Origin: Gemmatimonadota bacterium
Lineage (GTDB): Bacteria; JAAXHH01
Reading direction: 5' to 3'
Assembly (NCBI GenBank): GCA_026705925.1
Contig: JAPOZT010000011.1
Location: forward strand, 124,001-188,000
DNA: 64,000 nt
Shown: positions 6,934 to 42,978 of the stretch, one piece after another
Layout: the number at the start of each line of letters is the position of its first letter
How positions within the stretch are numbered: the stretch's first letter is position 1
Notes under the pieces: generated by a model
The model's database searches: none
Told to the model about the DNA's origin: nothing
What the model saw: the letters and a program-made list of their open reading frames with translations, nothing else
Program-made: the position numbers and the translations under genes

Positions 6934-8328
6934 TCACTCCCCAGTCTCGCGCTGGACGGCCTCCCAGGCCGCCAGGCCCCCGACCAGGTCCATCACGTCC
7001 GCGATGCCGTTCCGCTTCAGGATGCTGGCCGCCATGGCGGAACGATAGCCGCCGGCGCACTGGACGACCACCGTGGTGCCGTTGGGGATCTCGCCCAGCC
7101 GTTCTTCCAGGTGATTCAGGGGAACGTGGAGGCTGCCACGGATGGACCTGGCGGCGCGTTCCTGGCCGGATCGGATGTCGAGCACCAGGGGCGGGCTTTC
7201 CGTGTCCAGCCGGTCCCTGAGCGCCGCCGCGGTGATGCGGTCGGTCCGGCCCAACAGGTCGGGCCGTGCATCCAGCGCGTGCATGCCGCCCTTCAGGTAC
7301 CCCGCGATATGGTCGAAGCCGATGCGGCCCAGTCGCAGGGCGGATTCCTCCTCGGCGCCCGATTCCGTGATCAGCACGATCGGCCGGTCCCGCCGCAGCA
7401 GCGTGCCCGCCCAGCTGGCGTACTGGCCCCCGAGCCCGATGTTGACGCTCCCCTTCAGGTGCGCGCCTTCATAGTCCGCGGCGTCCCGCGTGTCGAGCAG
7501 CTGGGCGCCCTCTTCCGCCTTGCGCAACACCTCGTCCAATGAAAGGGGGTTCAGGTTGCGCTTCAGCAGGTGGTCCAGCGTTTCGTGTTCCTGCGCGTTG
7601 AACGCGGCGTCGTAGGTGAAGTACGAAGGCGCCTCGGGCTGGTCCGTCGTGATCAGGCGGGTAAAGGTCTCCCGGTCCATCGGCTGCAGGGCGTAGTTGT
7701 ACTTCTTCTGATCGCCCATGGTGGACACCGTGTCCGTACTCAAATTTTTGCCGCACAATGAGCCGGCGCCGTGCGCGGGATAAACGAGCGTCTCGTCGAC
7801 GGTCGCCGGAATCAGCTTCCCGTGGAGGGAGTCGTAGAGCAGGTTGGCGAGGTCCTCGGCCTTCCAGCCGAGGGCGGCCCGCAGGTCCGGTCGGCCCACG
7901 TCGCCGATGAACAGGGTGTCCCCGGTCAGTGCGGCGTAAGGCGAGGCGGCCGCCTCGGGGTCGAAGACCAGGATACAGACCGACTCGGGAGAATGCCCGG
8001 GCGTCTCGAGAAAATCGAGCCTGATCTTGCCCAAGTCCATGCCTCCGCCGTCCCACATCGGCTCGAAGGCGTAGTCTGCCTCGGCGCGCGCCCCGAGGTG
8101 GATCATGGCGCCCGTGCGGTCTCTCAGTTCCAGGTGGCCCGCGGCGAAATCCGCGTGGAAGTGCGTCAGAAAGACATGTTCGATGGTCATGTTCCGGGCT
8201 TCGGCCTCTTCGATGTACTGGCCGATGTCGCGCTGCGGGTCCACGACGGCCGCGACGCCGGAGGATTCGTCCCCGAGGAAATAGGACGCATGGGCGAGAC
8301 AGCCCAGATAGTACTGGTTGAGTATCAT
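6934..8328 (-). CDS. MBL-fold persulfide dioxygenase fused to two rhodanese domains
   Basis: The 464-residue cytosolic protein joins an ETHE1/CstB-type metallo-beta-lactamase domain with two rhodanese domains. Likely Fe(II) ligands are His56 (in THFHADF), the His of ETPGHSPES and the Asp of LTGDTLFIGD; His58 and Asp60 complete the motif. Rhodanese 1 (about 260-355) has VLITESGAEEES where the active-site Cys loop should be, so it lacks the catalytic Cys. Rhodanese 2 keeps Cys424 in VVQCAGGYRS. The family oxidises glutathione/CoA persulfides or produces thiosulfate. It is the last gene of the opp-like operon, 90 bp after the solute-binding protein. Confidence 0.88.
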   Translation of the reverse strand: MILNQYYLGCLAHASYFLGDESSGVAAVVDPQRDIGQYIEEAEARNMTIEHVFLTHFHADFAAGHLELRDRTGAMIHLGARAEADYAFEPMWDGGGMDLGKIRLDFLETPGHSPESVCILVFDPEAAASPYAALTGDTLFIGDVGRPDLRAALGWKAEDLANLLYDSLHGKLIPATVDETLVYPAHGAGSLCGKNLSTDTVSTMGDQKKYNYALQPMDRETFTRLITTDQPEAPSYFTYDAAFNAQEHETLDHLLKRNLNPLSLDEVLRKAEEGAQLLDTRDAADYEGAHLKGSVNIGLGGQYASWAGTLLRRDRPIVLITESGAEEESALRLGRIGFDHIAGYLKGGMHALDARPDLLGRTDRITAAALRDRLDTESPPLVLDIRSGQERAARSIRGSLHVPLNHLEERLGEIPNGTTVVVQCAGGYRSAMAASILKRNGIADVMDLVGGLAAWEAVQRETGE

Positions 8329-39535: not shown

Positions 39536-40609
39536 TTGCAGATCGGCCTCGTCGGGCTGCCCGGTTGCGGTAAGACCACGTTGTTCAACGCGCTGGTCAG
39601 GGCCAATGCGGTAACCGGCGGATACGCGGGACAGAACGCGGCCAACCGGGGCACGATCAGGGTCCCGGACCACCGAGTGAACCGCCTTTCCAGTCTCTTC
39701 AATCCGCGCAAGACCACCTTCGCCACCGTAGAATACCTCGATATAGGCGGCATCACGTCCGGTTCGGGACGGCAGGAGGAACAGCAGGGCGCGGGAGGGC
39801 TCGCCGACCTGCGCATGATGGACGTACTCGTGCACGTCCTGCGCGGCTTCCCGGACCTGGCCGGTACGCCCGTTACCCCGGGCGAGGATTTCGAGTCGGT
39901 GGAACTGGAACTCGCCATCGCCGATCTGGAGATCATCGAGCGCCGGCTGGCCCGCCTTTCCAAGGAGGCCCGGTCCACGAAGCAACCCGACCTGGTGCGG
40001 GAATGGAAACTGCTCGAACAGTGCAAGGAGGAGATCGAGGGCGGCGGGGTCATTCGTAACCTCGAATTTGCTCCTGAAGACGAGAAAAGGTTAAGAGGCT
40101 ACCGGTTTCTCTCGCAGAAACCGGTGCTCCTCGTGCTGAATGTCTCCGAGGAAGACATGGGCTCGGAAACACGCGTCCTGTCGGAACTGGGCGACTGCGC
40201 CGAAGGGCTGGACGCCCTGGCGCTTTGCGCGAAGGTCGAAATGGAGATCGCCCAGCTCGACGAGGCGGACACCGCGGCATTCCTGGACGAATTGGGCATT
40301 GAGGAATCTGCCCTGAGCCGCATGATCTCCGCCTCGTACCGGTTGCTCAACCTGATCTCGTTTTTTACCGTGGGTGAAGACGAAGTGAAGGCATGGACCG
40401 TCACGCAGGGCGTAACGGCGCCCGATGCCGCCGGGGAGATCCACTCCGATCTGAAGCGGGGTTTTATCCGGGCCGAGACCGTGGAGTGCCAGACCATCCT
40501 CGAGCTTGGAGGCTGGCAGGCCGCAAAGGAAAATGGCGTGCTGCGCGTGGAAGGCAAACAGTACGTCGTCATGGACGGCGACGTGATCAACGTGCGGTTC
40601 AGCGTCTGA
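39536..40609 (+). CDS. YchF/OLA1-like GTPase-superfamily ATPase, divergent
   Basis: The 357-residue P-loop protein has Walker A GLPGCGKTT and DxxG-like LDIGGI. LVLNVSEED stands at the G4 position, where YchF/OLA1 also lacks the Lys of NKxD. A coiled-coil helical insert follows G3. The C-terminal TGS/DUF933 part is clear: FFTVGEDEVKAWTVTQGVTAPDAAG and IHSDLKRGFIRAE...VMDGDVINVRF. YchF proteins bind ribosomes and prefer ATP. Shorter spacing and altered G1/G3 residues make it a divergent paralogue rather than standard YchF. TTG start after AGGAGG. Confidence 0.85.
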   Translation: MQIGLVGLPGCGKTTLFNALVRANAVTGGYAGQNAANRGTIRVPDHRVNRLSSLFNPRKTTFATVEYLDIGGITSGSGRQEEQQGAGGLADLRMMDVLVHVLRGFPDLAGTPVTPGEDFESVELELAIADLEIIERRLARLSKEARSTKQPDLVREWKLLEQCKEEIEGGGVIRNLEFAPEDEKRLRGYRFLSQKPVLLVLNVSEEDMGSETRVLSELGDCAEGLDALALCAKVEMEIAQLDEADTAAFLDELGIEESALSRMISASYRLLNLISFFTVGEDEVKAWTVTQGVTAPDAAGEIHSDLKRGFIRAETVECQTILELGGWQAAKENGVLRVEGKQYVVMDGDVINVRFSV

Positions 40610-40639
40610 CAGCGCCGTCCTGATCTGACCGCGCCGTCC
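40605..40639 (+). repeat. 16-bp direct duplication across a stop codon
   Basis: tctgacagcgccgtcc (40605-40620, containing the TGA of the YchF-like gene) recurs with one mismatch at 40624-40639. Confidence 0.88.
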
Positions 40640-40658
40640 GAAAGGTTTACGAATTCAC

Positions 40659-40688
40659 TTGTCAATCTGCAGGCAAGGTCAATATCAT
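40659..40688 (+). promoter_or_regulatory. sigma70-type promoter for the selenoprotein-like gene
   Basis: TTGTCA (40659-40664), 18-bp spacer, TATCAT (40683-40688); start codon 58 bp downstream. It shows that this gene is an independent, expressed unit. Confidence 0.7.
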
Positions 40689-40746
40689 AGATAACCCGAC
40701 CGGCCCGGGACAACCGGGGCTTTAGTCCACCACCTGAAACGGATCG

Positions 40747-41328
40747 ATGAAAATGAAAACCCGAATTCGCTTGATCACCGCGCTGATCCTGGCCGGAGCC
40801 ATGTCGTGGGCTTCGCAGGCCGGCGCCCAACTCAACACCAACACCAGCTTCAACCCGGAACCGCTCAGCCTCGTGGACTTCAAGAAGGCGTTCAACGGCG
40901 ATACGGGCAAGGTCCGCCTCGTCGTGATGTTCTCGCCTACCTGAGGCCACTGCATAAGCGGCGCCGGGGCGGTGCAGCAAGAGATACTGAAGAAGTTTCC
41001 CTCCGATGACCTCCGGGTCTACGTGGTCTGGCAGCGGATACTCAGGAACGATGCGGTCAATACGGCCAAGATCGCGGCGGAGCAAGTGTTCAGCGACAAG
41101 CGGGTCAGCCAGATGTGGGACCCCGCGAACGCGCTGGGATTCTGGTACAAGAAGTCGGGAGAACTGGAACACAAGGACCCCATGGTCTGGGACGCCTACT
41201 TCCTCTACGGTGCGGATTCCGAGTGGAAGGACGCGCCTACCGGGCTGATCGACGCTGGTTACACGGTGTGGAATATGAAAGACAGGCTCTTGAAATCGGT
41301 GGCAACGACGATGGAGACCGTGGACTGA
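40747..41328 (+). CDS. exported thioredoxin-fold protein with in-frame TGA: probable selenoprotein (UxxC)
   Basis: One reading frame of 193 residues interrupted only by TGA at 40942-40944 (residue 66). The codons around it read Phe-Ser-Pro-Thr-TGA-Gly-His-Cys, exactly a thioredoxin-type CxxC with selenocysteine in the first position. Homology-like context continues without a frame change on both sides: KVRLVVMFSPT before, and ISGAGAVQQEILKKFPSDDLRVYVVWQ split across the following codons after. A signal peptide (residues 1-28, ending AGA-Q) sends it to the periplasm. A GC-rich hairpin starts three bases after TGA (40948-40953 pairing with 40969-40974), a plausible bSECIS. It has its own promoter and terminator. 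The alternative is a nonsense-mutated Cys gene. Confidence 0.8.
40945..40977 (+). promoter_or_regulatory. candidate bacterial SECIS hairpin
   Basis: Immediately after the in-frame TGA, CACTGC (40948-40953) can pair with GCGGTG (40969-40974), one G-U pair, leaving a G-rich 15-nt loop; CTGCA/TGCAG is an alternative stem. Position and loop guanines fit a SelB-recognised element, but the structure was judged by eye. Confidence 0.5.
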
Positions 41329-41382
41329 TTTCCCGGCATCCGGGAATCAGGATACAACTACAGCACGACGAAGATTGATTGG

Positions 41383-41416
41383 ACGGGGCGGTTCGGCAAG
41401 GACCGCCTCGTTTTTT
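41383..41416 (+). terminator. intrinsic terminator after the selenoprotein-like gene
   Basis: GC-rich stem ACGGGGCGGT/ACCGCCTCGT with loop around cggcaag, followed by six T. It separates this gene from the convergent aceEF operon. Confidence 0.85.
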
Positions 41417-41511
41417 GTGGGGATGTTGTTCGAAGGTTCCGGCCGGTAAGTGCGGATTCAGTCCGGCAGAAAAGGTCCGACCGGTCGGGTCCGAAGGTCC
41501 CTGCCGCCCGG

Positions 41512-42978
41512 TCATCCCTCCAGACTGAGCAGGAAGGGTTCCTCGAAGGCCTGGACCAGCCACTGCATGAAGCGGGCGCCGTCCGCGCCGTCTATGAGCC
41601 GGTGGTCGTAGGAGATCATCAGCGGCAGCATGAGGCGCGGCTGGAACGCGCCATCCACGTAGACCTGTTCCATGCGGCTGCGCGCCAGCCCCAGGATGGC
41701 TACGTCGGGCGCATTAATGATCGGCGCGAAGAAGGTGCCGCCGAACCCGCCCAGGTTCGAGATCGTAAAGGTGTTCCCCTGCATATCGTCCGGCGAGAGC
41801 TTCCTGTCCCGGGCCCGGGCGGCGACTTCGGAAAGTTCGACAGACAACTCGACCATGTTCTTCCGGTCCACGTCCCGGATGACCGGCACGACCAGGCCGC
41901 GGTCCGTATCGACGGCCACGCCCACGTGGTAGTACTTCTTGTGGATGATCTCCTGCCCGGCCATGTCGACGCTGGCGTTGAAGAGGGGAAATCGCTTGAG
42001 CGCCGCGGCCACGATCTTCAGTGCGATGGCCGTCATGGTCAGCTTGCCGCCGGCGGCTTCGGCCGCGGGACCGAACTGCTTGCGCAGGGCTTCCATGTCG
42101 GTGACGTCGGCCTTGTCGGCGTAGGTGACGTGGGGGATGTTCGTCCACGCGGCGGACAGGTGCTCCGCGGCGGCCCGGCGAAGGTTGCTCATGGGCTCGG
42201 TTTCCACCGGACCCCATTTCGCGAAGTCCGGGAGCGTAGCCGGAGCGGATGGCCTGGGACCGGCAGCCCCTTGGCCGGCGCTCAACAGCCTGGAATGGGA
42301 TTTGACGTCTTCGACGGATATGCGGCCGTCGGGACCGGTTCCCGGTACCTGGCCGATGTCGAGTCCGATCTCCCGGGCGAAGCGGCGTACGGAAGGCGCC
42401 GCGGGTACCGGCGCGCCTGAAGTGGAAGTGGCCGCGGGAACGACCGGAGCCGTCGGTAGAGGGGGTGCATCTTCTTGTTCCGATGGACCAGCGTCCGCGG
42501 CAGGTGGCGCGCTGACTCCGTTCTCAGGAGTATCGGCAACTGAGGTTTCCGCGGCAGGCACTTCGGTAGTGGACTCCGAACCATCAGCGGCAGGTCCGTC
42601 GGCGGCAGGCGCTTCGGCCTCCGCCCCTTCTTCCGCTTCTGCTGCGGCGGACTCGCTGGTTGCCTCTCTGGCTGCCTCTCCGTCCGCGTCCCTGCTGGCT
42701 TCCTGCGCCGCGTCCCCGCCGGCTGCCGCACCCTCCCCCGCCCCTTCTTCATACATCAGGACAGGAGCGCCTACCTCGGCCGTCGCGCCGTTCTCCACGA
42801 GGATTTCCGTCACCACTCCGCTGAATCCCGACGGCACCTCGAGGTTGGCCTTGTCGGTCTCGATCTCCAGGACGGGCTGGTTTTCTTCGACTTGATCCCC
42901 GACGGCCACCAGGATACCCACCACGGTGCCCGCGTCGACGTTCTCACCCAGCGCCGGAAGATTAAAAGGCGTCGCCAT
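41512..42978 (-). CDS. aceF: pyruvate dehydrogenase E2, dihydrolipoamide acetyltransferase
   Basis: The 488-residue E2 core of the pyruvate dehydrogenase complex has one lipoyl domain (lipoyl Lys in IETDKANLEVPSG, about residue 44), an Ala/Glu/Pro-rich linker of about 110 residues, a peripheral-subunit-binding domain (VRRFAREIGLDIGQVPGTGPDGRI, quoted in part as GQVPGTGPDGRI), and the acyltransferase core ending SYDHRLIDGADG with the catalytic His. It follows aceE on the same strand by 86 bp. The E3 gene lpd is not in the window. Confidence 0.94.
   Translation of the reverse strand: MATPFNLPALGENVDAGTVVGILVAVGDQVEENQPVLEIETDKANLEVPSGFSGVVTEILVENGATAEVGAPVLMYEEGAGEGAAAGGDAAQEASRDADGEAAREATSESAAAEAEEGAEAEAPAADGPAADGSESTTEVPAAETSVADTPENGVSAPPAADAGPSEQEDAPPLPTAPVVPAATSTSGAPVPAAPSVRRFAREIGLDIGQVPGTGPDGRISVEDVKSHSRLLSAGQGAAGPRPSAPATLPDFAKWGPVETEPMSNLRRAAAEHLSAAWTNIPHVTYADKADVTDMEALRKQFGPAAEAAGGKLTMTAIALKIVAAALKRFPLFNASVDMAGQEIIHKKYYHVGVAVDTDRGLVVPVIRDVDRKNMVELSVELSEVAARARDRKLSPDDMQGNTFTISNLGGFGGTFFAPIINAPDVAILGLARSRMEQVYVDGAFQPRLMLPLMISYDHRLIDGADGARFMQWLVQAFEEPFLLSLEG

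Follow-up and report, generated by a model that had tools for sequence, protein, structure and literature searches.

A probable exported thioredoxin-like selenoprotein from an apparently unnamed, mostly selenocysteine-containing family in a Gemmatimonadota bacterium

The window analysed here, a stretch of 64,000 nucleotides from a Gemmatimonadota assembly, carries on its forward strand at positions 40747–41328 a single reading frame which, read directly from the sequence, is interrupted solely by a TGA at 40942–40944 and closes with a TGA stop. A previous sequence-only reading of this DNA had reported one frame broken only by an in-frame TGA within Ser-Pro-Thr-TGA-Gly-His-Cys, and frame, position and motif all match what we find. 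The translation begins MKMKTRIRLITALILAGAMSWASQAGAQ and continues ...VVMFSPT-U-GHC...TVD, where U is the TGA codon (40942–40944, +) taken as selenocysteine and aligned with TGC or TGT in four relatives, and where the TGC codon at 40951–40953 (+), the C of UxxC, would by sequence and alignment supply a putative resolving cysteine. The first possible start lies at 40747, and a start at 40753 appears more likely because Met 3 is the Met kept across the genus; the selenoprotein coding sequence, including its final TGA stop, is thus placed at 40753–41328 (+), and the selenocysteine would be residue 66 if counted from 40747 or residue 64 if counted from 40753. The hydrophobic N-terminus MKTRIRLITALILAGAMSWASQAGA, which precedes a Q, is a putative signal peptide (40753–40827, +; cleavage after AGA), identified by eye from the sequence rather than by a predictor program, and similar hydrophobic N-termini occur in the genus.

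The flanking elements named in the sequence-only reading are seen here as a by-eye signal peptide, a consensus-matched promoter-like site and a strong terminator hairpin. Specifically, a promoter-like site (TTGTCA-18-TATCAT, 40659–40688, +) was found by consensus match only, in a scan that gave two such sites on both strands of 40600–41500 against 0.3 expected. Downstream, a stem-loop followed by a run of six T residues (41381–41416, +) forms a predicted intrinsic terminator of −24 kcal/mol (z −5.6; none of 200 shuffles equally stable), and a consensus terminator scan gave another, weaker site at 41406–41422. An Rfam scan of 40700–41450 returned two matches only, both at chance level. The upstream neighbour encodes a YchF-type GTPase (39536–40609, +) and the downstream neighbour a pyruvate dehydrogenase E2 of the aceF type (41512–42978, −), the E1 gene lying with E2 on the opposite strand. 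This order of ychF, gene and aceF is kept in seven of seven same-genus loci from the close relatives compared, and the named database records among these relatives are MAGs submitted under Candidatus Latescibacterota or Gemmatimonadetes.

Within the genus, each of the 12 genomes examined carries a family gene whose matched region contains a single TGA, and the 12 assemblies agree on the TGA itself, in line with the codon reported earlier. For the 35 codons that precede the TGA, a comparison of 11 distinct same-genus sequences gives a pN/pS of 0.167; the 46 codons that follow have a value of 0.283, and a C-terminal stretch of 65 codons one of 0.155. One sequence (L041) carries a one-codon insertion. 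Purifying selection therefore acts on both sides of the TGA, and the low pN/pS downstream shows that translation and selection extend past it. The pattern by which bacterial selenoproteins are recognized, an in-frame UGA flanked on both sides by conserved coding sequence, is thus present at this locus.

The gene belongs to a family for which the searches found 42 genes, counting that of the window, spread over 39 genomes and five phyla; 37 of these genes have TGA at the active-site position, four have Cys (TGC or TGT) and one has Ser. Because the usual gene-calling programs often divide selenoprotein genes or leave them out, a family that is mostly selenocysteine would be easily overlooked. 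Within the window's phylum, profile A1 matched 14 of 16 genomes; elsewhere it matched four of 80 in the phylum of G187 (one dropped as weak), 10 of 132 in the phylum of G172, two of three in that of G088 and 11 of 47 in that of G340, while in a broad sample 22 of 384 genomes matched at E ≤ 0.001, weak matches among them. Excluded from the 42 were L049, L070, L071, L072 and L076 (E 2e-7 to 7e-4), which are generic thioredoxin-like or lack UxxC, as well as L047, a C-terminal remnant in G013; L051–L067 and L073 are repeats of genes under other identifiers and L025–L031 same-genus duplicates, so that none is counted twice. The 42 genes reduce to 41 distinct rows (G002 and G006 are identical over the stretch compared), 30 of which were used for alignment A6 and the tree. 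Two loci have unusual structures: the remnant in G013 (L047:1364-1567) comprises the C-terminal part only, and the 600 bases before it show no active-site part in any of the three frames, while in G492 the gene is divided between two overlapping frames, one with the N-terminal half and the other with the Sec half (L106:5368-6257(−) and L080), a frameshift or assembly error at a place where G493 (L082) and G491 (L086) read continuously. A single protein query (L044) found no relative in viral contigs.

The sequence-only reading had proposed a search for homologues with Cys or TGA at residue 66, and such homologues exist: four Cys genes (L050, L074, L093 and L096, in G187, G384, G591 and G592) and 36 further TGA genes. 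TGA, Cys and Ser all occupy one column of the 30-row A6, in which Pro44 and Trp75 are invariant and Phe29, Arg37, Ser43, Sec/Cys46, Cys49, Asp82, Arg99, Trp104, Asp129, Tyr134 and Trp140 nearly so. On the tree of these rows two changes suffice for the three states, and the Ser row falls within the Sec rows. One genome, G187, holds both a TGA and a Cys form (L046 and L050). In the Ser form (L084 in G586) the motif reads SPTSASS, the UxxC being replaced by S-A-S-S.

The source genome (38 contigs, 94% complete) contains the components that would be needed to decode the UGA, and the search for selA, selB, selD and tRNA-Sec suggested earlier recovered all four over their curated cut-offs: tRNA-Sec at 70.6 bits (called tRNA-SeC by ARAGORN), SelB at 322.6 bits (344.3 including a second piece), SelA at 490.4 bits and SelD at 254.7 bits. 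The selB and selA genes lie on contig C5 and selD on C23. The tRNA-Sec gene directly adjoins selB (C5:25599-27661; L001 and L009), and the tRNA-Sec model also matches another site (C13:46584-46669; L002), which is borderline at 47.5 bits against a cut-off of 47; the same model gives weak matches in all 14 genomes used as controls, five of them above the cut-off. Across the family, SelB is over the cut-off in 31 of the 35 genomes with TGA genes, and the lack of a SelB match over the cut-off in the remaining four, G009 (87% complete), G088 (97%), G602 (88%) and G622 (83%), may reflect assembly gaps. It is likewise over the cut-off in all three Cys-only genomes. The Ser-form genome G586 (100% complete) has no SelB over the cut-off, and a natural Ser form in such a genome suggests that the domain may keep a non-redox role. 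As a discriminator of the family, however, SelB co-occurrence fails (31 of 35 TGA genomes versus 35 of 40 non-family genomes hand-picked from the same phyla), because SelB is common in these phyla; the single Ser genome is the exception.

Downstream of the UGA we predict a SECIS hairpin, GCGCCG-GGG-CGGUGC (40961–40975, +), in which 40961–40966 would pair with 40970–40975 around a GGG loop at 40967–40969, placing the helix 16 nt and the loop 22 nt from the UGA. The sequence-only reading had instead set a hairpin three bases after the TGA, which is displaced by this comparatively supported helix starting 16 nt beyond it, and the fold of 40942–40985 that it had recommended as a check proved uninformative on energy alone (z 0.44; 135 of 200 shuffles as stable). 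The support for the window hairpin is therefore comparative and not energetic. According to the rules given in the text of a 2026 review, bacterial SECIS elements have a loop of 3–9 nt with G in the first two places and a stem of 4–16 bp, lie 16–37 nt from the UGA and have an energy of −7.5 or lower (PMC13188914). The window hairpin conforms, with 6 bp, a GGG loop and a distance of 22 nt, although its helix-alone energy of −7.6 kcal/mol is only narrowly past the limit of −7.5. In a scan that demanded at least five unbroken pairs, 29 of the 36 distinct TGA rows conform (11 of the 29 from the same genus) and seven do not, and none of the five Cys or Ser rows does; the specificity of these rules is weak, as 125 of 1619 background TGA triplets on both strands of the window also satisfy them. 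The hairpins fall into two registers, with the loop either 22 nt after the UGA (the window type) or 17 nt after it, and the first loop base is G in 25 of 25 rows of alignments A4 and A5. In the window-type register (A4), 95.2% of 84 cells are paired against 90.5% in shuffles, 15 of 500 of which score as high, and one pair is changed on both sides; in the other register (A5), 100% of 77 cells are paired, none of 500 shuffles scores as high and two pairs are changed on both sides. These counts cover 14 of 22 rows of group A, omitting seven near-identical same-genus copies and L097 (2/6 pairs), and 11 of 14 rows of group B, omitting L048 (4/7), L078 (4/7, with a 3-nt shift) and L085 (3/7), and they are to be read with the helix positions having been picked by eye beforehand and with protein coding also constraining these bases.

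Could the TGA be a true stop, what follows being either the relic of a decaying gene or a small gene of its own, and the whole a broken gene or an assembly error? The stop codon is there, the mechanical ORF list contains a 118-aa ORF from GTG 40972, and the remnant in the related genome G013 shows that a C-terminal part without an active site can occur; yet a TGA shared by all 12 same-genus genomes and by 37 of 42 family genes across five phyla, with purifying selection downstream of it and the SECIS pattern, makes this explanation highly improbable. A change of code, by which TGA would be read as Trp, as Cys or by readthrough rather than as selenocysteine, is scarcely credible: the frame does stay open whichever amino acid TGA is taken to encode, but the gene's own terminal stop is also TGA, the sense residues aligned with it are Cys (four) or Ser (one) and never Trp, and both the Sec machinery and the SECIS pattern are present. 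The intact frame, its conservation and the Sec/Cys/Ser exchange are supported by computation, as are the machinery and the SECIS pattern, and because machinery, conservation, selection, exchange and SECIS pattern point the same way, the prediction that TGA 40942–40944 encodes selenocysteine is nearly certain. The main point of the sequence-only reading is thereby upheld, and two of the three outcomes that it had named as refuting, a genome lacking selB/selC and a lack of homologues with Cys or TGA aligned at the site, did not come about.

The thioredoxin fold proposed in the sequence-only reading is supported by sequence comparison alone, through a match of profile A6 to 2l5o, a ‘putative thioredoxin’ (E 4.6e-4), and an hhalign comparison with five TlpA/redoxin-like proteins (probability 94.6 over 108 columns), two of which (L049 and L072) are themselves weak matches of the family search; on this basis we regard the protein as probably thioredoxin-like. 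Profile A1 matched PDI chains at a best E of 8.7e-5, a signal that fades in the deeper A6 (best E 0.5). By alignment, the CxxC or UxxC lies after the first strand and before the long helix, as in thioredoxin folds, whereas no cis-proline is found in the region of A6 aligned to that facing the active site. This region reads [AVILG][WY][DNG], the exact residue depending on register, with Trp-Asp in 25 of 25 Sec rows, Tyr-Asp or Tyr-Gly in the four Cys rows and Trp-Asn in the Ser row. The cis-proline of thioredoxin folds normally shields active-site cysteines from metals. An AlphaFold2 model built from eight close sequences only had a pLDDT of 43, too poor for use.

Profile libraries gave the family no name. 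No Pfam model matches the window protein, and in scans of 15 different family proteins against Pfam and NCBIfam 20.0 no model exceeded its cut-off for any of them. Sub-threshold matches comprised Thioredoxin_4 (E 0.005–0.006) for the Cys relative L050, DUF3887 (E 0.029) for one member, GAGA and Rv2179c-like (E 0.07–0.09), phosphatidylserine decarboxylase (E 0.094) and pdi_dom (E 0.13). By label and motif, no clear match appears among the 119 families and subfamilies of the 2026 catalogue, although UxxC thioredoxin-like entries are present in it. A literature search (including PMC13188914, PMC12013277, PMC2398784 and PMC1088965, with no preprints and few subscription papers) tied no paper to the family. 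The earlier label ‘new-type’ thus gains from the lack of a Pfam or NCBIfam model over the cut-off and of a catalogue label match, and is not thereby proven.

In some relatives, mercury-transport domains or MerR-family genes occur next to the family gene or fused to it. Raw counts were taken over the regions around 20 of the 42 family genes, chosen for diversity. In three of these regions (L104 in G389, L110 in G620 and L115 in G622) MerT, HMA, a linker and the Sec domain occur in one frame, with the Sec domain C-terminal and both MerT and HMA over the Pfam cut-offs. The open reading frames at L104:5371-6507(−), L110:5371-6159(−) and L115:5357-6670(−) join MerT and HMA to the first half of the Sec domain and end exactly at the SPT before the TGA. 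In L106 (G492), genes for MerR, MerT-HMA (MerT below the cut-off), Thioredoxin_3/DUF2703 and an unassigned product precede the Sec gene on the same strand, and in L108 (G602) a MerR-family gene lies directly upstream of it. L099 (G088) has, some 2 kb upstream of the Sec gene and on its strand, a partial HMA truncated by the contig end (24.1 bits against a cut-off of 24.8), and L109 (G615) has what resembles, by eye, a degenerate first MerT segment. Besides this upstream HMA, G088 (L099:3893-4564(−) and 7284-7688(−)) has an ArsR-type regulator-rhodanese fusion, then a metallo-beta-lactamase-fold gene and an MFS transporter, downstream of the Sec gene. The other 14 regions showed no MerT, HMA or MerR, Pfam having been applied to selected neighbours and to none for L098, L101 and L103. 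In Pfam the window gene itself has no MerT or HMA domain, such domains being present in relatives only.

Two further explanations bear on identity and function rather than on the TGA. The family may already have been reported under another name, most plausibly as GOS_C (NF045500), which the text of an ocean survey describes as thioredoxin-like with UxxC, with Sec and Cys forms and no conserved domain, and for which it counts 74 Sec sequences (PMC2398784); MDP6169091.1 is listed for GOS_C in the 2026 catalogue. That description fits, but none of the 15 family proteins scanned matches NF045500 in NCBIfam 20.0, on the assumption that the library includes this model, and we consider the identification doubtful; the family is apparently unnamed so far. 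The other explanation concerns chemistry: the Sec-Cys pair might bind a soft metal, Hg(II) or another, in the periplasm or hand it on, instead of carrying out general disulfide chemistry. It draws on the MerT-HMA fusions in three of the 20 regions, the MerR gene nearby in two more, the partial HMA and the seemingly degenerate MerT segment, as well as on the 2026 review, which lists MerT in a selenocysteine form together with further selenoproteins linked to metals, whose precise roles according to that review need more study (PMC13188914). Against it stand the 14 regions without MerT, HMA or MerR among the neighbours looked at, and the solitary position of the gene between ychF and aceF in the window's genus, so that it is a possible but less probable reading. 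Since the mercury context occurs in some relatives while the gene is solitary in the window's genus, soft-metal handling is best regarded as a hypothesis for part of the family. On a bolder reading, possible but less likely than not, these exported thioredoxin-like domains, mostly Sec, spread over five phyla and without the cis-proline, might use their selenol to trap mercury or other soft metals, or to pass them on, on the outer side of the membrane, fused in some lineages to MerT-MerP-like transporters, with the window protein as a freely diffusing version. With the in-frame MerT-HMA fusion, a connection of selenocysteine to mercury handling becomes open to test.

The reading that we prefer, and hold to be very probable, is that the gene encodes an exported thioredoxin-like selenoprotein whose UGA is decoded by the organism's own Sec machinery with a SECIS element, yielding a UxxC redox pair. 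Ribosomes would decode UGA 40942–40944 as selenocysteine by means of SelA, SelB, tRNA-Sec and SelD and the SECIS element with its loop 22 nt downstream, and the thioredoxin-like product, estimated at about 21 kDa as precursor and 19 kDa when mature, would be exported to the periplasm. There Sec66 and Cys69 would make up the UxxC redox pair, placed where the first long helix of the thioredoxin-like domain begins; the selenolate would attack a disulfide, an oxidised thiol or a soft-metal adduct, and Cys69 would resolve the intermediate. The export, fold and chemistry are what we infer, and ‘selenium-dependent oxidoreductase’, the term used in the sequence-only reading, may suit the protein, with metal handling as an alternative that the mercury-gene fusions of relatives add.

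Several known systems resemble the family in part. The TlpA/redoxin-like proteins (Pfam Redoxin, AhpC-TSA) likewise have a CxxC-type motif after the first strand, whereas the family has selenocysteine for the first Cys in most members and Trp-Asp in the cis-proline region, and its 15 scanned members reach no Pfam cut-off. The Rcas_1661 family thioredoxin-like (seleno)lipoprotein (NF041057, a ‘DsbG-like protein’) is thioredoxin-like with UxxC, as is the family; its model gives the best of the sub-threshold NCBIfam matches, to the Cys relative L050 at an E of about 1e-4 and 21.3 bits against a cut-off of 190, and matches neither the window protein nor any other of the 15 scanned members. GOS_C is likened to the family by description, and the NCBIfam scans gave no GOS_C match for any scanned member. 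Finally, Sec-containing MerT (PF02411) shares the mercury-transport context seen in some family relatives, but there the Sec motif, C/SxxU, lies in MerT itself, whereas in the family the selenocysteine lies in a separate C-terminal thioredoxin-like domain.
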